From positions 1-64,000 of the forward strand of contig CAJVYC010000001.1 of NCBI GenBank assembly GCA_913009205.1: a stretch of DNA of 64,000 nt. The letters are read 5' to 3'. The DNA is from an uncultured Fluviicola sp. (lineage in GTDB: Bacteria > Bacteroidota > Bacteroidia > Flavobacteriales_D > Crocinitomicaceae). Below the pieces are notes generated by a model. The model had not been told where the DNA came from. It did not search any database and worked only from the letters and a program-made list of their open reading frames with translations. The position numbers were made by a program, and so were the translations under genes. Within the stretch, counting starts at the first letter, position 1; every line of letters begins with the position of its first letter. Of this stretch, positions 25,584-31,538 are shown piece after piece.

Positions 25584-25615
25584 TTGTTTAACAAAACAAG
25601 TAAATGATTGAACAA
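25584..25615 (+). promoter_or_regulatory. Candidate operator 1: TTGTTTAA-N16-TTGAACAA
   Basis: The left arm (25584-25591) overlaps a -7-like TATACTTG at 25579-25586, and the right arm is at 25608-25615, 8 bases before the ATG of the flavin-reductase fusion gene. A TTGCTA block lies 14 bases upstream of the left arm. A tighter palindrome CTTGTTT/AAACAAG (25583-25600) is nested in it. Position over the promoter fits a repressor or light/ligand-responsive regulator site. Confidence 0.65.
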
Positions 25616-25623
25616 AACAGATT

Positions 25624-26655
25624 ATGCTAGTTAAAAAAGAAGAAATCTCTTCTTGGGATTCTAAATACCGCTTAAAATTTATTAATTCTTTATCTGGATA
25701 TAAAGGTGTACATCTAATAGGTACAAAGGGAAAGAAGGGCACTACCAATTTAGCCATATTCAATTCTATCGTTCATATTAGCTCTGAGCCGGCTCGAATT
25801 GGATTCATTATGAGACCACTCACCGTGCGAAGAGATACTTATGAAAACATTATCGAGACGGATTCTTTTACTATAAATCATGTCCATAAATCGTTTTTAG
25901 AACAAGCACATTTTACCTCAGCCAATTTCAACTCCGATGAATCGGAATTTGATTTTTGTAATCTCAAAGAAGAATACATAGAAAACTTCAACGCTCCTTT
26001 TGTTTGTGAGAGCACAATTAAATTCGGGTTGAAATTAATTGAAGACATGGAAATAAAAGAAAGTGGGTGCCGTCTTATTGTTGGCGAAGTCCAAGTTATC
26101 AGCACTAAAGAGGAATATATTGAAGAAGATGGACAATTGGATTTAGAGAAAGCCAATGATGTTTCTGTTACTGGTTTGAATCAATATTCATCAGTAAAAA
26201 AATTAACAAACATTTCTTACGCTCGAAAAGAAGCGCTTCCTAACTTTAATCAAAAGAAGCGTCCAGACAATGTTGTTTTCGATGAAGAAAGTCAATCTTA
26301 CAACGCTAACATTTTGCCTTACGGAACAAACATAGGAGCTCCAAGCATCAACCTTAGCAGCGTTTCTGTATGGAAAAGTCGAGGAATTAATAGTTTCAAT
26401 CATGTTCTTAAAAGTAAAATTGAAGGAATTAAAGATGAATATGAAACACTCGTTAAAACCTATGAGCTGAATGAATTGATCTACAATGCTAAATATAGTT
26501 TTGAGCCAATCATAGGAGAAGTCTACCATTTATATGAGAAGGACAACACGGATGAAAATTTCTTATCAATAATTCCTCCGCACACATGGAAAAGAAAACA
26601 CCTTGGTTCGTTTAAGTTGAGCAGTGAAAAAGTTTGGAGTGAAATAAATGACTAA
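25624..26655 (+). CDS. Flavin-reductase-like domain fused to DUF2452
   Basis: 343 residues in two parts. Residues 1-215 form a flavin reductase-like FMN-binding split barrel: HLIGTKGKKGTTNLAIFNS, ARIGFIMRP, SFTINHVHKSFLEQAHFTS, APFVCESTIKFGLKLIEDM. Residues 228-343 are a DUF2452-like domain: PDNVVFDEESQSYNANILPYG, NIGAPSIN, WKSRGINSFNH, NELIYNAKYSFEPIIGEVYHLY, HLGSFKLSSEKVW. I recall these as separate, neighbouring genes in related bacteria, so this is probably a fusion. The protein is cytosolic and may bind FMN. It overlaps the next gene by 8 bases and has a shared operator at its promoter. Confidence 0.8.
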   Translation: MLVKKEEISSWDSKYRLKFINSLSGYKGVHLIGTKGKKGTTNLAIFNSIVHISSEPARIGFIMRPLTVRRDTYENIIETDSFTINHVHKSFLEQAHFTSANFNSDESEFDFCNLKEEYIENFNAPFVCESTIKFGLKLIEDMEIKESGCRLIVGEVQVISTKEEYIEEDGQLDLEKANDVSVTGLNQYSSVKKLTNISYARKEALPNFNQKKRPDNVVFDEESQSYNANILPYGTNIGAPSINLSSVSVWKSRGINSFNHVLKSKIEGIKDEYETLVKTYELNELIYNAKYSFEPIIGEVYHLYEKDNTDENFLSIIPPHTWKRKHLGSFKLSSEKVWSEIND

Positions 26656-27031
26656 GATGACAGATTTAAAGAAACAAATTCGCCCCGAAATTCCAAGTAT
26701 TACAAAAACGGAGAATTTCAACGCAGAAGAAAAATTTCAAAATGAAATTCTTCGGCCTATTATAAAGCTTCAGCATGAGCTTATCGTGTGCTATTTTGAG
26801 TATCATCTCGAACAGAACAAGATAAAGATGAATGAACTCAGCACCATTCAAAAAAAGGATTTAACTCGAAAATTATTTAAAGGAGACACACGACTTAAAA
26901 CCGAATTACGCGGCTTTATCATTGGTTTGTTTACGGTTGAAGAATACAAAGAGTATTTGAGCTTGCCCTCGCAACTCAACAAAAGAATAAACAACATGAT
27001 TCAACAGAGGGTTGATTCATGCTATACTTAA
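26648..27031 (+). CDS. Small cytosolic protein of unknown function, coupled to the flavin-reductase fusion
   Basis: 127 residues, mainly helical by composition (FQNEILRPIIKLQHELIVCYFEYHLEQ, split by NKIKMNELSTIQKKDLTRKLF; then TELRGFIIGLFTVEEYKEYLSL). No signal peptide or cofactor motif is visible. I recognise it as a conserved Bacteroidota hypothetical protein found next to flavin-reductase/DUF2452 genes but know no function. It overlaps the preceding gene by 8 bases. A second ATG at codon 4 (26657) is an equally plausible start. Confidence 0.7.
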   Translation: MTKMTDLKKQIRPEIPSITKTENFNAEEKFQNEILRPIIKLQHELIVCYFEYHLEQNKIKMNELSTIQKKDLTRKLFKGDTRLKTELRGFIIGLFTVEEYKEYLSLPSQLNKRINNMIQQRVDSCYT

Positions 27032-27045
27032 AGGAAACGTTTTTT

Positions 27046-27077
27046 TTGTTTAGCCTTTTGTAGTATATATTAAACAC
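27046..27077 (+). promoter_or_regulatory. Candidate operator 2: TTGTTTAG-N16-TTAAACAC
   Basis: The arms are at 27046-27053 and 27070-27077, with the same 16-base spacing as the sites at 25584 and 29547 and one mismatch per arm at the outer position. A TATATTTG -7 box follows at 27085-27092, and the small membrane protein gene starts at 27136. Confidence 0.55.
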
Positions 27078-27135
27078 TTTTTCTTATATTTGTCATAATA
27101 CTTTAAAACAAATCCCCTTATCTAAGATCAAATTT

Positions 27136-27303
27136 ATGAAACTACTTGAAAAATACTATCCTGTTCTACTCGCATTCATAAGTTTTGTTCTTTCTGTATC
27201 TCTATGGTTTAGTGGTCAAAAAGAAGAAGGAATGTTTGTTGGAATATGGGTACCGTCAATTCTTAGTTTAGCAATATTTATTAGACTAGTTAAAAACGAC
27301 TAA
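27136..27303 (+). CDS. 55-residue membrane protein
   Basis: The frame runs ATG to TAA: MKLLEKYYPVLLAFISFVLS, then VSLWFSGQKEEGMFVGIW and VPSILSLAIFIRLVKND. It has two hydrophobic segments, about 8-26 and 34-50, joined by a short charged loop, so it should be a hairpin inner-membrane protein. Composition and framing are clearly coding. It lies behind operator 2 and a TATATTTG promoter box and is followed after 2 bases by another small membrane protein gene. No family name can be given. Confidence 0.65.
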   Translation: MKLLEKYYPVLLAFISFVLSVSLWFSGQKEEGMFVGIWVPSILSLAIFIRLVKND

Positions 27304-27305
27304 AT

Positions 27306-27452
27306 ATGGGAAATATTACACTTTTTATAGTCGGATTCTGCATTTTCTCTGTTTATATTTTTTTTCTATTAAAAATGATTAATAAACAGCATGGAATTCA
27401 AAAAAATGATGAACAAAATTCTCAAAAACTTAAAGACAATAATGTCTTATAA
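27306..27452 (+). CDS. 48-residue single-pass membrane protein
   Basis: MGNITLFIVGFCIFSVYIFF then LLKMINKQHGIQKNDEQNSQ: one N-terminal membrane helix (about 4-22) followed by a polar, glutamine/asparagine-rich tail. It starts 2 bases after the stop of the 55-residue gene, so the two form a pair. Its stop codon lies inside a perfect 24-base palindrome. It is too small for family assignment and could be a regulatory or complex-stabilising small protein. Confidence 0.55.
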   Translation: MGNITLFIVGFCIFSVYIFFLLKMINKQHGIQKNDEQNSQKLKDNNVL

Positions 27453-27464
27453 TTATAAGACATT
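27441..27464. repeat. Perfect 24-base palindrome at the end of the small-protein pair
   Basis: AATGTCTTATAA is followed immediately by its exact reverse complement TTATAAGACATT. It covers the last codons and stop of the 48-residue gene. As RNA it forms a 10-bp hairpin with a 4-base loop but without a following U-run, so it may stabilise the 3' end or bind a dimeric protein. Confidence 0.7.
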
Positions 27465-27539
27465 AATAGGAAAATGTTTGTTAAGAAGATCAGTTGAAAA
27501 AATAGAATATTAAATCCAATTCTAGTTTGGACGCGAAAT

Positions 27540-27978
27540 GCAACCGATCATTACAAGCCAGGATTTCATCACTAAGTACAGGGTAGAATTTAACAATGAC
27601 TATCGGAGCAACTATTGCATTGGCTGGAGTGTATTTTGGATTTAATTGTGTGACACACAGTAGGATTTACAAAAATTTGACTTCAAGTGCTGAGGGATGT
27701 TTCCATAATTCTGATCCAATACATAGAGAATTCACTTTTAAGTTCAGACCTAATTCAGAGATATTGGTCTTGAACATAGCGCCAATATCAGTTACAAACT
27801 CTTCGATCATTTCAGTTTAAATGCTGGAATTGCCCATTCAATTGGACACTTCAAGGAAAATGAGTTTTACGCAACACTTGTTTATGCTTGAGGAATATTG
27901 ACAACCTCTCAGCCTAAACCGTGTTACGAAGCGAATAACTTCCTTTATCTCAAGGCGGGAATTGTTTATAAGGTTTAA
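27540..27978 (+). pseudogene. Probable frameshifted remnant of an outer-membrane beta-barrel gene
   Basis: Protein-like stretches occur in changing frames: IALAGVYFGFN from 27596, then FDHFSLNAGIAHSIGHFKEN with NEFYATLVYA, a stop, and NNFLYLKAGIVYKV ending at TAA 27978. Alternating aromatic/glycine residues and the LKAGIVYKV end resemble a beta-barrel C terminus. No continuous frame exists, and no start is clear. The rest of 27465-28150 shows nothing else that I can identify. Confidence 0.4.
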
Positions 27979-28150
27979 GTAGACAACTTAAGTAAAGGAT
28001 TTGATTTCTAACCGCACCTAAAAACCATACTGGCGAAATACTTTTTGTTCTTCCTTAATTCTGAAAAATCCTTATTAACTTTGAAAAAAAAAGTCGTAGT
28101 GTAAAGTCTGAGAGAGTCGCAAAACGCTATATCGAAGCAAAAACAAAAGA

Positions 28151-28933
28151 ATGAATAGAATTCATCATATAGAAAATGAGATTTCAGAATTAAGAAATCA
28201 ATTACAGAATCATAAACTTTATAAAAACCTACAGACCATAGATGACATCAGGGTTTTTATGGAGAATCACGTATTTGCTGTCTGGGACTTTATGTCACTT
28301 TTAAAATGCCTTCAAATAGAATTGACAAATGTTCAAACTCCTTGGATTCCATCTAAAAATACAACTCTTACTCGATTCATAAATGAAATCGTACACGGAG
28401 AAGAAAGTGACATCAATGAATTAGGAGAACCTAAAAGTCATTTTGAAATGTATTTGGATGCAATGACTCAAGCTAGTGGAAAAACAAACGAGATTAACAA
28501 TTTCATAAAACTTATTGAATCTGGAAAATCAATTGAATACTCATTAAACGAAATCAATATAGATAAAAGAGTCGCTGATTTCGTCAAATTTTCTTTTTCA
28601 ATTATTGAAACCAACAAGGCTCACCTTGTAGCTTCTGCTTTCACATTTGGACGAGAAGATGTTATCCCAGATATGTTCATTGAAATTCTGAAATCGACTG
28701 ATTCGGAAAACACGACATTCAGCAAATTGACATATTATCTTGAAAGACATATAGAATTAGATGGGGAAGAACACGGACCACTATCTCTTAAGATGATTTC
28801 AGAACTATGCGGTAATGACGAGCAAAAATGGAGTGACACGTTAATAGTCGCAAAACAATCACTGATGAAGAGAATTGGCCTTTGGGATGCAATTAATGAA
28901 ATAATACTAAAGCCAGAATATAGCATGGTATAA
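28151..28933 (+). CDS. DUF3050 family protein (haem-oxygenase-like fold)
   Basis: 260 residues without signal peptide. DUF3050 features: helical start [90 protein letters not shown]. The histidine/glutamate pattern ([22 protein letters not shown]) matches a haem-oxygenase-like helical bundle that may hold a di-metal centre. The reaction is not known to me. It stands alone between two stretches of decayed genes, suggesting that it is under selection. Confidence 0.85.
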
Positions 28934-29072
28934 AAGATATTAAAACAACCTTTTATACAGATTGTTTCTTGACAAAGTTTTGGGTGCGCCTTACTCGAAA
29001 GATTCCCAGAATAGCAAAAACCGATCCCCCCGTAAAGGAAAAACCGGCTTCAATGACTTTTTTATTACTCTT

Positions 29073-29156
29073 TTATAAAACGACTTCATTCTTCGTTTTA
29101 AAATTTACGATGTAATTACCACTAGCCAAACTTTCTACGGAGAAGATTGAAGCTAC
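29073..29156 (-). pseudogene. Remnant of a T9SS C-terminal sorting tail
   Basis: On the minus strand a frame reads FSVESLASGNYIVNFKTKNEVVL then stop. This is the usual T9SS type A tail pattern (LxxGxYIVxxxT) without its basic last residues. No upstream body of the protein is present. It is short, so chance resemblance cannot be excluded. The remainder of 28934-29162 shows nothing else identifiable. Confidence 0.35.
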
Positions 29157-29162
29157 TTCCGT

Positions 29163-29375
29163 TTGCGCTTATTACAAAAGTCCAAAAGTGAAGATGCTCA
29201 TATGAAAGCCAGTATGATTTTCACTTCCAACGATGTCATAATTAATCTTGGAGTAATAGCTGCTGGCATCCTCTTGTTTGGGGTTAATTCGAACTACCAT
29301 GATCTAATTATTGTAGCATTTGTATTTATTATAGTTATTCGAGGCGCTTTTAGGATATTAAAGCTTGGAAAATAG
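29163..29375 (+). pseudogene. C-terminal fragment of a cation diffusion facilitator transporter
   Basis: The frame reads HMKASMIFTSNDVIINLGVI, AAGILLFGVNSNYHDLIIVA, FVFIIVIRGAFRILKLG. This matches the end of CDF-family transporters (NMRAxWLCSRNDVIxNxGV, then a helix with PDxIVG). Only about 65 of roughly 200 residues remain: two membrane helices, without the N-terminal metal-binding half. No proper start precedes it. It is most likely a dead gene, although MKASMIFTS could serve as a start for a small membrane protein. Confidence 0.75.
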
Positions 29376-29546
29376 AATGGTAACAACACGTCCAGCTCGC
29401 AATGCGGAATTCTTTTTCTAATGGCCTACAAAGCTAAATAATTCAACAATTGCCTGACTCAATCAATAAAGCGCCTTTTAACGGTCGAGCTTTTTTATGT
29501 TTATTTAACCAAATAGATTCGTTTTTTGCTAGAGTAAATATATAAT

Positions 29547-29578
29547 TTGTTTAACTTTACTGTAAAATCATTAAACAA
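29547..29578 (+). promoter_or_regulatory. Candidate operator 3: TTGTTTAA-N16-TTAAACAA
   Basis: This copy is a perfect inverted repeat, extended to 9-base arms (TTTGTTTAA 29546-29554, TTAAACAAA 29571-29579). The left arm overlaps a TATAATTTG box at 29541-29549, the right arm ends 2 bases before the ATG of the TetR gene, and TTGCTA lies 15 bases upstream of the left arm, as at operator 1. Confidence 0.7.
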
Positions 29579-29580
29579 AA

Positions 29581-30210
29581 ATGGAAGCTCAGGAAATTTT
29601 ATCGGCCTATTCAGAATATGTGATTGAACACAACTCCCGTCCAAAATCAATGGCAGTATTTGCCAAGAAACTGGAAATTAGCGAGTCTCACATTTATAAA
29701 TATTATGCGAATTTCAAAAAGATAGAATCTGAAATCTTTAAGCATCTCATTGATAATGCAATTGAATTAGCAGACAAAAACGCAGAAAATTCAGAACATC
29801 AGGATTCAAGGGAATCGTTGCTTACGTTTTACTTTACCCTTACAGAAATTTTAAAGGCGAACCGTTCACTCGTTGTATTTATGATCCCTGGAGACCGTAC
29901 TTCAATTTCACAATTGCACGTTCTTAAATCTGCAAAATCCAGTTTTTTAAATTTCATAAAAAAGTTAGATTTAGAAACTCCAGCATTGTCTTTTATTCCC
30001 GATAATAAAATAAAGGACAAAGCACTGGAAACAGCTGCATGGATGCAATTCTGCTCTATCCTACTCTATTGGTTAAAAGATACTTCTCCAGACTTTGAAA
30101 AGACAGATGTTTTCATTGAAAAAAGCCTCAAACTCTCCTTTGATTTAGTTGAATCGAACGTTATGGAAAGTATGGTGGATTTAGGAAAATTCATGTTTGG
30201 GAAATCATGA
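29581..30210 (+). CDS. TetR-family transcriptional regulator
   Basis: 209 residues. A TetR-type helix-turn-helix lies at about 8-55 (SKPKSMAVF-like segment SRPKSMAVFAKKLEIS, then ESHIYKYYANFKKIESEIF), followed by a helical ligand/dimerisation domain. The ATG begins 2 bases after the right arm of a perfect inverted repeat, so autoregulation is plausible. The gene overlaps the UbiB/ABC1 kinase gene by 4 bases (ATGA). The ligand is unknown. The C-terminal domain resembles TetR proteins paired with ABC1 kinases in other Bacteroidota, a recollection I could not check. Confidence 0.88.
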   Translation: MEAQEILSAYSEYVIEHNSRPKSMAVFAKKLEISESHIYKYYANFKKIESEIFKHLIDNAIELADKNAENSEHQDSRESLLTFYFTLTEILKANRSLVVFMIPGDRTSISQLHVLKSAKSSFLNFIKKLDLETPALSFIPDNKIKDKALETAAWMQFCSILLYWLKDTSPDFEKTDVFIEKSLKLSFDLVESNVMESMVDLGKFMFGKS

Positions 30211-31538
30211 AATCATTAGATCACATTCCTCAGACAAAAATTCAACGCGCGAGTAAACTATTGAAAATCGGTGCTCAAGTGAGTACAAATTACGTTAAAT
30301 ACCTTGGCAATCGCGTCGTTTCTAACGAAGATAAATCACGAAAAAAGTTAAACGAAGCGAATGCTACAGACATCTATGATGGATTATCAGAACTCAAAGG
30401 AAGTGCTCTAAAAATGGCACAAATGATGAGTATGGATGACGGAATTTTGCCAAAAGAATACGTGGAAAAATTCTCCTTAGCGCAATTCAGGGTGCCACCC
30501 CTTTCAGGTCCTTTGGCGCGCAAAACATTTAAAGGTGCAGTTAATTCGTATCCTGAAGAAGTGTTTACCCAGTTTAAGACAGAAAGCAGTTATGCCGCAA
30601 GTATTGGTCAAGTTCACGAAGCTTGGATCGACGAGAAGAAGTATGCTGTTAAGATTCAATACCCTGGTGTTGCAAAAAGTATTGTCAGCGATTTACGTTT
30701 GGTGAAACCGATTGCATTGCGCATATTAAAGTTGAAAAAGGAAGATGTCGACGACTACTTTAATGAGGTGCAAGAAAAATTATTAGAAGAGACGAACTAC
30801 ATCCATGAAAAAGAAAGTCTTATAGAATCTCGATTGTTGTCAAAACACCTAAAAAACATTGTCATTCCAGAAGTTAACGAATCCCTTTCAAGTCGAACTA
30901 TACTGACAATGGAATGGATGGATGGATGGCACTTGTCCGAATATGTTGAACAAGAATCAAATCAAGAAAAACGAAATCAGATCGCACAGGCTTTGTGGGA
31001 TTTTTTCCAATATCACATTCACGTGCATCACAAAGTTCACGCAGACCCACACCCTGGAAACTTTAAGGTGAATAAGGATAATAAACTTGTCGTCTTAGAT
31101 TTTGGATGCATGAAAGAAATTCCACTTGATTTCTATCAATCTTTCTTTAAACTCGCTGAAATCGAAAACATCAACAACGATACAGTGTTTCTTGACGTAC
31201 TTAAAGAGCTGCAATTGATTAACGATTCTGACACAGAAGAAGATATAGAAGTAATCAAATCAACATTCAGAACATTGTTGACTATAATTAACAAGCCGTA
31301 CCAGTTTGAAACATTTGATTTTAGCGATCCTGAATATTTCAAGCAGTTGCTAATGCTCGGAAACGAACTCATAGATGACAAAGCACTTAAGAATTTGAAA
31401 GGGAAAAGAGGTTCTCGTCATTTTCTTTACGTGAATCGTACTTTGATCGGATTGTTGGGATTGATGAATCAATTGCAGGCCGGAGAGGTTGTAGTTCAAA
31501 ATTACAAATCACATGCTCCTATAATGGTTGAGGGCTAA
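30207..31538 (+). CDS. AarF/ABC1/UbiB kinase-like protein
   Basis: 443 residues. The family motifs are in order: ELKGSALKMAQMMSMDDGILP (variant of KxGQ), the alanine-rich loop YAASIGQVHEAW, invariant lysine in YAVKIQYPG, HADPHPGNF and VLDFGCMKEI (metal-binding DFG-like). Such atypical kinases/ATPases support isoprenoid-quinone synthesis or lipid handling; many lack a tested substrate. No membrane helix is evident at the C terminus, unlike E. coli UbiB. It is translationally coupled to the TetR gene by a 4-base overlap, so the regulator probably controls it. Confidence 0.9.
   Translation: MKSLDHIPQTKIQRASKLLKIGAQVSTNYVKYLGNRVVSNEDKSRKKLNEANATDIYDGLSELKGSALKMAQMMSMDDGILPKEYVEKFSLAQFRVPPLSGPLARKTFKGAVNSYPEEVFTQFKTESSYAASIGQVHEAWIDEKKYAVKIQYPGVAKSIVSDLRLVKPIALRILKLKKEDVDDYFNEVQEKLLEETNYIHEKESLIESRLLSKHLKNIVIPEVNESLSSRTILTMEWMDGWHLSEYVEQESNQEKRNQIAQALWDFFQYHIHVHHKVHADPHPGNFKVNKDNKLVVLDFGCMKEIPLDFYQSFFKLAEIENINNDTVFLDVLKELQLINDSDTEEDIEVIKSTFRTLLTIINKPYQFETFDFSDPEYFKQLLMLGNELIDDKALKNLKGKRGSRHFLYVNRTLIGLLGLMNQLQAGEVVVQNYKSHAPIMVEG

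Follow-up and report, generated by a model that had tools for sequence, protein, structure and literature searches.

The closest described relatives of the system considered here are the CarH repressors of Thermus thermophilus, Bacillus megaterium and Myxococcales, in which a MerR-type helix-turn-helix is combined with a B12-binding region carrying conserved Trp, Glu-His and lower-ligand His residues, and whose genes adjoin carotenoid genes. According to the available parts of PMC8156234 and PMC9304148, this family is characterized by repression in the dark, B12 and light as the signal, and TnnACA half-sites in operators that overlap the promoter. The studied CarH operators consist of 3-4 tandem 11-bp direct repeats (nnnnTnnACAn). 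In Pseudomonas, the class II LitR proteins PplR1 and PmlR2 control PhrB, FolE, the cryptochrome-like CryB and their own genes, and their promoters carry a paired-arm operator, T(G/A)TACA-N12-TGTA(C/T)A (PMC9758184, in its accessible sections). Flavobacterial carotenoid clusters, such as the myxol cluster of Nonlabens spongiae, begin with a MerR gene that accompanies the crt genes; the accessible text of PMC11855829 states no function, operator or light response for that gene. In the open-access literature searched, we recognised no description of a LitR/CarH operator from Bacteroidota.

Here we analyse three inverted repeats in a stretch of 64,000 nucleotides from an uncultured Fluviicola sp. 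(assembly GCA_913009205.1, contig CAJVYC010000001.1, positions 1 to 64,000), called the window throughout. We consider it highly probable that these repeats are operators of a LitR/CarH-type B12 photoreceptor-repressor that is encoded elsewhere in the genome and switches a scattered light-protection regulon. The likeness to CarH extends to the domain composition, the conserved residues named above, the adjoining carotenoid genes, the TnnACA half-sites and the overlap with the promoter; the position of a MerR gene at the head of the carotenoid genes also resembles the Nonlabens spongiae cluster. The operator is an inverted repeat with a 16-base spacer (N16), where the CarH proteins that have been studied use 11-bp tandem repeats, and we regard it as a new variant of the CarH/LitR type. 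Regulon content and the paired arms within promoters are comparable to those of the class II LitR proteins. The spacer and arm order differ, being TGTTTA-N18-TAAACA in the same frame as their N12, and, unlike the protein described below, the class II proteins retain just the four-helix part of the B12 domain, with PmlR2 relying on a LOV partner (PMC9758184, same sections).

The three 32-base repeats lie exactly where the sequence-only reading had placed them, with the arms and spacing it had given (Table 1), and they are the only zero-mismatch matches to the motif in the window. Scores come from a 36-column weight matrix whose training set of 82 sites consists of the 90 collected sites minus the three in the window and five in the loci L021, L037, L046, L093 and L109. 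Five of the 82 come from the source genome (G000) and none from the window. The collection omitted sites within long open reading frames (ORFs) and those lying over 150 bp away from a gene start, and its distance figures consequently lean to promoters. The best other position in the window scores 2.3, against at least 21.4 for the three operators, and 2.33 matches scoring at least 8 are expected per Mb of first-order Markov sequence. Operator 2 is the weakest and least symmetric of the three, with a right arm terminating in C; the three closest homologues of the gene behind it have stronger sites, 57-58 bp upstream.

Palindromes of this kind could be chance products of AT-rich DNA, and relaxed searches lend this explanation some room: with up to three mismatches, the window contains 26 matches against a mean of 14.8 expected (2 of 100 shuffles reach as many), and with up to two, the whole genome contains 47 forward matches against 31 in the reversed control. 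As the excess in the window is modest, specificity was tested by other means. In the source genome (2.82 Mb, 37 contigs), the pattern TTGTTYAR-N{2,30}-YTRAACAA occurs 12 times against three in the reversed control; eight of the 12 have a spacer of exactly 16, and at this fixed spacing the control gives none. Across 120 genomes of the order, we counted 208 occurrences of the strict motif and 18 of the reversed control. The sites are also tied to gene starts, with a median distance of 12 bp and 81 of 87 within 60 bp, these 87 having been chosen with a 150-bp limit. In our view, the strict-pattern, spacing and position counts refute a chance origin, the probability of which is practically negligible. 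The genome-wide density that the sequence-only reading had put forward as a check is not random and favours a functional operator. The three repeats are real and part of a genome-wide set.

The proposal of a single regulator is supported. A set confined to 5 kb is not, since the set spans the genome (Table 1). The gene labels crtB, crtD and crtZ rest on similarity, as crtB and crtD matches lie below their cut-offs and crtZ has no NCBIfam match; the crtI-type and CrtID models are above cut-offs. The dxs gene of the relative G016 has a strict-pattern site immediately upstream of its start (L078). Four further positions (C18:42439, C3:82018, C1:394807 and C1:417215) were dismissed as chance matches because they lie inside ORFs. 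The first of these, one of the eight N16 sites, is located in a 1545-codon ORF, scores only 11 and is probably fortuitous.

Table 1. Operators and associated genes in the window and elsewhere in the source genome (C, contig; aa, amino acids)
Feature	Position	Strand	Score	Context
Operator 1, TTGTTTAA-N16-TTGAACAA	window 25584..25615	+	23.7	ends 8 bp before ATG (25624) of the flavin reductase-DUF2452 gene
Target 1, flavin reductase-like domain (PF01613) fused to DUF2452 (PF10504), 343 aa	window 25624..26655	+		
127-aa ORF, no family above cut-off	window 26648..27031	+		8 bp overlap with end of flavin reductase gene
Operator 2, TTGTTTAG-N16-TTAAACAC	window 27046..27077	+	21.4	58 bp before ATG (27136) of tiny membrane protein gene
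Target 2a, 55-aa hydrophobic protein, probably membrane, no family above cut-off	window 27136..27303	+		
Target 2b, 48-aa hydrophobic ORF, putative gene as read from the sequence	window 27306..27452	+		directly 3' of the 55-aa gene
Operator 3, TTGTTTAA-N16-TTAAACAA	window 29547..29578	+	35.3	both arms perfect; 2 bp before ATG (29581) of TetR-like gene
Target 3a, TetR-fold protein, PF17931 C-terminal domain, weak COQ9 match above curated cut-off, no PF00440 helix-turn-helix match	window 29581..30210	+		
Target 3b, UbiB/ABC1 atypical kinase-like protein	window 30207..31538	+		4 bp overlap with TetR-like gene
Operator	C5:104323			ends 23 bp before gene of 293-aa MerR/B12 protein, followed by crtI, phytoene-synthase-type gene and second crtI-family gene
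Operators, two copies 44 bp apart	C5:99669 and C5:99713			upstream of fasciclin-domain protein
Operator	C1:87886			between fasciclin protein and DUF6268 protein
Operator	C2:1154			upstream of 6-pyruvoyl-tetrahydropterin synthase (PTPS)
Operator	C2:2584			between CDP-alcohol phosphatidyltransferase and GTP cyclohydrolase I (folE)
Operator	C11:72927			upstream of SDR-SRPBCC-DUF2805-flavin reductase
Operator	C14:11061			upstream of glutathione peroxidase (GPx); CIA30 protein and photolyase further downstream
Operator	C8:574			upstream of three photolyase/cryptochrome-type genes, amine oxidase further on
Weak site			10.9	over dxs start
Possible weak member	C32:651		15.5	121 bp before gene of 1230-aa secreted-type protein
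Site excluded from count	C7:124873		9.2	606 bp from next same-direction ORF

The candidate regulator gene (G000:C5:104378-105256) is followed directly by crtI and other carotenoid genes. Its product, here called LitR, matches MerR_1 (PF13411) with 59.3 bits (cut-off 21.6) and B12-binding_2 (PF02607) with 34.6 bits (cut-off 23), and its residues 5-223 align with CarH structures, the best being PDB 3whp (E 5e-17), followed by 5c8d, named CarH (E 6e-17). PF02607 has only one other match in the genome, in a 900-codon frame that is probably methionine synthase. The equivalents of CarH W131, E141-H142 and H177 are retained in the segments GEHHEI, GELW and HEH. Among 26 proteins of the order, extracted by pattern from 30 loci and including our own, all display the W...EH pattern and 24 the His-Glu pattern, with one having the latter elsewhere in the protein. 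The genome also encodes a cobalamin adenosyltransferase (PF01923, E 2e-62). A decayed piece (G000:C5:103977-104177, L010:10978-11178), 66% identical to the LitR DNA-binding domain and interrupted by three stops, closely precedes the intact LitR gene and is probably a remnant of a second copy; some relatives have two LitR paralogues.

The obvious candidate of the sequence-only reading was instead the local TetR protein, with a LitR/CarH-type photoreceptor as the alternative. A TetR-family protein binding the repeats would repress its own operon and two neighbouring targets, and operator 3 does sit in the usual place for autoregulation, the motif is palindromic, and the protein has a TetR-like C-terminal domain. 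The survey of the order (120 genomes; LitR homologues called at E < 1e-20, a threshold of our choosing) points the other way. Genomes with LitR (n = 102) contain on average 1.97 strict sites (control 0.14), against 0.39 (control 0.22) in the 18 without, whereas genomes with a homologue of the window TetR (n = 32) and those without (n = 88) have nearly equal means of 1.78 and 1.72. The corresponding Mann-Whitney values, which take no account of kinship, are 6.6e-5 for LitR and 0.56 for TetR. The most site-rich genomes, G050 (11 sites), G057 (10) and G029 (9), have no homologue of the window TetR. Of 31 relatives with a TetR match, 20 loci were fetched, none overlapping training sites, and 17 have no operator; in the other three (G042, G047 and G017), the operator stands at the start of a short-chain dehydrogenase/reductase (SDR) gene in the order SDR-TetR-UbiB, that is, before another gene of the operon. 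The DNA-binding domain PF00440 was found in none of six proteins of the window TetR group. Binding by TetR would moreover leave the sites at LitR, crtI, folE and the photolyases unexplained. On the co-occurrence and locus tests we reject the TetR protein as binder of the repeats, a very unlikely explanation in our judgement. A LitR/CarH-type photoreceptor is the better reading, as the sites track LitR. At class level, the strict motif occurs in 66 of 149 genomes, against 22 of 149 for the reversed control.

A closer tie between operator and regulator is offered by 24 LitR loci from named genomes, selected by protein similarity (185 kb in total; L188 is from the same genome as L075). A matrix match is present in 22 of them, with 0.43 expected. 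The operator stands at the LitR start in 15 (-33 to -45 from the start of the LitR match), and in 16 it lies after LitR and before the next gene (+872 to +1014). This next gene is crtI in 16 loci and an extracytoplasmic-function (ECF) sigma gene in three. This is the arrangement expected of a regulator acting on both its own gene and the adjoining carotenoid operon. Our argument rests on the named set, in which no locus contains a training site. In the order-level set, 19 of 30 LitR loci have a matrix site, a partly circular count, 12 of the 30 sharing training sites. Operator-bearing named loci include those of Flavobacterium flevense DSM 1076 (L195), F. daejeonense DSM 17708 (L204) and F. 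seoulense EM1321 (L193). In six named loci (L189, L193, L195, L197, L204 and L206), the presumed LitR start codon, ATG in four and TTG in two, lies inside the right arm (ATGAACAA or TTGAACAA), so that operator and translation start overlap. This placement points to a leaderless or very short-leader LitR transcript.

Operators and promoters are also interlocked. The sequence-only reading had described a promoter conserved together with the operator, and the overlap is supported: in operator 1, the TTG of the left arm is common to a TATACTTG -7-like box, and 22 of 90 sites have a TAnnTTTG box with its TTG forming the start of the left arm, sites 1 and 3 carrying near forms. The element TANNTTTG is part of the housekeeping promoter consensus of Flavobacterium johnsoniae given in the accessible text of PMC3587595. 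Through this common TTG the operator covers the -7 box and presumably the transcription start, which fits repression by occlusion. The upstream element fared differently. At site 1, TTGCTA precedes the arm by 14 bp, and at site 3 by 15 bp; in the alignment of 90 sites it has just two further cases, at other distances, and is thus unsupported as a conserved -33 element.

The arms can be read as TnnACA-type half-sites, inverted and 24 bp apart. Across all loci collected, sites scoring at least 6 form 27 pairs within 150 bp, 24 of them at 33-64 bp and three at 132-133 bp. The tandem spacings fall at 33-35, 41-45, 53-55 and 61-64 bp (L010:6670/6714, L041, L030, L112, L123, L128 and others), in steps of about one helical turn, which suggests that neighbouring complexes lie on one face of the DNA. 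As many of the pairs are homologous, a simulation was run on the 11 distinct distances alone, giving 0.0024. Within the spacer, ACA is present at positions 13-15 in nine of 89 sites, against 1.7 expected from column shuffles.

Alternatively, the motif could serve another regulator, for example a second MerR protein, or a light-induced sigma factor working via the TAnnTTTG-like overlap, and LitR would then be just one target of that regulator. Consistent with this are the TTG common to arm and -7 box at 22 of 90 sites, the ECF-sigma-like ORF between operator and crtI in several relatives, and the paired LitR paralogues of some genomes. A 32-bp palindrome of fixed spacing is, however, no signature of a sigma promoter, and crtI follows LitR directly, with no sigma gene between, in 16 of the 24 named loci, all 16 of which have an operator. 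The link of operator to LitR in 22 of 24 loci and the near-control density without LitR leave LitR itself as the best fit, and we consider control by another regulator unlikely. A 170-171-aa ORF is found immediately after the operator, mostly before crtI, in L023, L037, L039, L041 and other loci; the ORF of L023, the single one analysed, encodes an ECF sigma factor, which suggests a LitR-to-sigma cascade in several relatives.

Of 30 proteorhodopsin loci, 14 have an operator upstream, at distances of 35-134 bp from the ATG; two of these operators are weak, scoring 8.1 and 9.9. Rhodopsin matches are present in 57 of the 120 genomes; the 30 loci fetched (L133-L162; operators also occur in L021, L046, L093 and L109) have no overlap with training sites.

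Within the window, we conclude that the flavin reductase-DUF2452 fusion, the tiny membrane proteins and the TetR-UbiB genes are targets of the B12-type photoreceptor-repressor. A fusion of the first type, 68-74% identical, adjoins the LitR gene in all four genomes of a related genus (g24). The tiny protein is encoded upstream on the same contig in three of these (G014, G040 and G102), and in G096 the contig begins there. The 127-aa ORF is probably co-transcribed with the flavin reductase gene. Among 28 matches to the 55-aa protein, 12 have an operator 14-151 bp upstream. These include all of the top nine ranked by E-value, which come from this genome and eight further ones; the tenth best (L247) has none. 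One locus (L260) overlaps the training set. We take the 55-aa membrane protein gene as a conserved member of the regulon. Conservation at orthologous promoters, which the sequence-only reading had suggested comparing, holds for the best homologues of the tiny protein, in favour of a functional operator, and does not hold for the flavin reductase fusion, as detailed below.

The TetR-like and UbiB genes appear to form one operon, and the window TetR is itself probably a target of the regulator. Since all six proteins of its group give no PF00440 match and the window protein alone weakly matches COQ9 (PF08511, 22.3 bits against a cut-off of 20.5, one of six), the window TetR may act with UbiB as a COQ9-like partner and not as a regulator. 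A single-sequence structure model of low confidence (mean pLDDT 61) resembles both TetR regulators and human COQ9, with no match at E < 0.001. The region 29581-31538 under operator 3 is possibly a bacterial COQ9-COQ8-like pair. In the source genome, SDR and TetR-UbiB are found at two separate places, each with its own operator.

Following the CarH model, the regulator in its adenosylcobalamin (AdoCbl)-bound form would in the dark occupy sites such as TTGTTTAA-N16-TTAAACAA. The bound protein would cover the end of the -7 element and the presumed transcription start, keeping RNA polymerase off. Light would break the cobalt-carbon bond, upon which the protein would leave the DNA and the regulon would be switched on, comprising carotenoid synthesis, photolyases and cryptochromes, the pterin genes folE and PTPS, peroxide and redox functions and fasciclin proteins, and including the three targets in the window. 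The same LitR and operator might instead respond to another signal than AdoCbl photolysis, for instance B12 status, redox or a partner photoreceptor as in class II LitR. The Gln at the H132 position described below would agree with this, as would the existence of B12-independent LitR/CarA relatives (described in the available sections of PMC9758184 and PMC8156234). In contrast, the retained equivalents of W131, E141-H142 and H177, the encoded adenosyltransferase and the light-related targets (photolyases, cryptochromes, carotenoids and, in relatives, rhodopsin) argue for the AdoCbl mechanism, and another signal seems rather unlikely to us.

Several observations weigh against a CarH-type photoreceptor acting on these operators. 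What the computation shows is a set of operators that is conserved and linked both to the regulator gene and to light-related genes; LitR binding, dark repression and B12 with light as the signal are carried over from CarH by analogy. At the protein level, the B12-binding match PF02310 (30.7 bits) remains just below the Pfam cut-off of 32.1, and the score for the CarH equivalog NF052513 is 88.1 bits with a cut-off of 400. Given the low equivalog score, we class the protein as a LitR/CarH-family homologue, not CarH. H132, the light-state cobalt-capping ligand of Thermus CarH (PMC4557120, in its available text), is replaced by Gln, which is also found in 17 of the 26 proteins of the order, with His in two. 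At the operator level, instead of tandem direct repeats there is an N16 inverted repeat, with tandem copies in some promoters, and an inner 11-bp tandem repeat was not found in 89 sites, where ACA occurs 10 times at the 11-bp position against 6.9 (sd 2.0). The correspondence between regulator and operator is also incomplete: 23 of 102 LitR-positive genomes have no strict-pattern site, G078 has three sites with no LitR found (assembly 83% complete), and 11 of 30 order-level LitR loci have no matrix site, with seven of the 18 free of training sites having one. The operator of the flavin reductase fusion is present in this genome only (one of 30 orthologous loci). Operators at rhodopsin genes of relatives are a further departure from CarH, and the source genome's own rhodopsin gene (L160:1441-2172) has just a left-arm-like piece upstream and no operator; 15 other rhodopsin loci lack an operator too.

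For Flavobacteriales as a whole, we see about an even chance that carotenoids, DNA photorepair and proteorhodopsin are under the joint control of a photoreceptor-repressor that is based on B12, has operators of a new design, namely phased 32-bp inverted repeats fused to the -7 box, and has an altered light-state chemistry, lacking H132. In that case, the B12 supply of marine and freshwater flavobacteria would determine how their rhodopsin phototrophy responds to light. The LitR homologue and its operator offer a concrete candidate pair for the open question raised by Riedel et al., and the 32-bp signature can be used to search Bacteroidota for the light regulon. Poorly understood genes become tied to light stress in this way, namely those for DUF2805, DUF2452, the 55-aa membrane protein, TetR-UbiB and the fasciclin proteins, and the operator is a possible additional type for optogenetics in Bacteroidota.

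Two further features were noted. Judged by similarity to proteins of the source genome, fasciclin-domain secreted proteins (L035, L084, L088, L112, L123 and L128) and TonB-receptor-like proteins (L020, L022, L073 and L082) are repeatedly encoded immediately after the operator in relatives. The source genome also contains, at G000:C1:216667-216687, a perfect palindrome of 21 bp, TTGTTCAGATAATCTGAACAA; it has similar outer arms at a spacing of 5 and is perhaps the site of another regulator.

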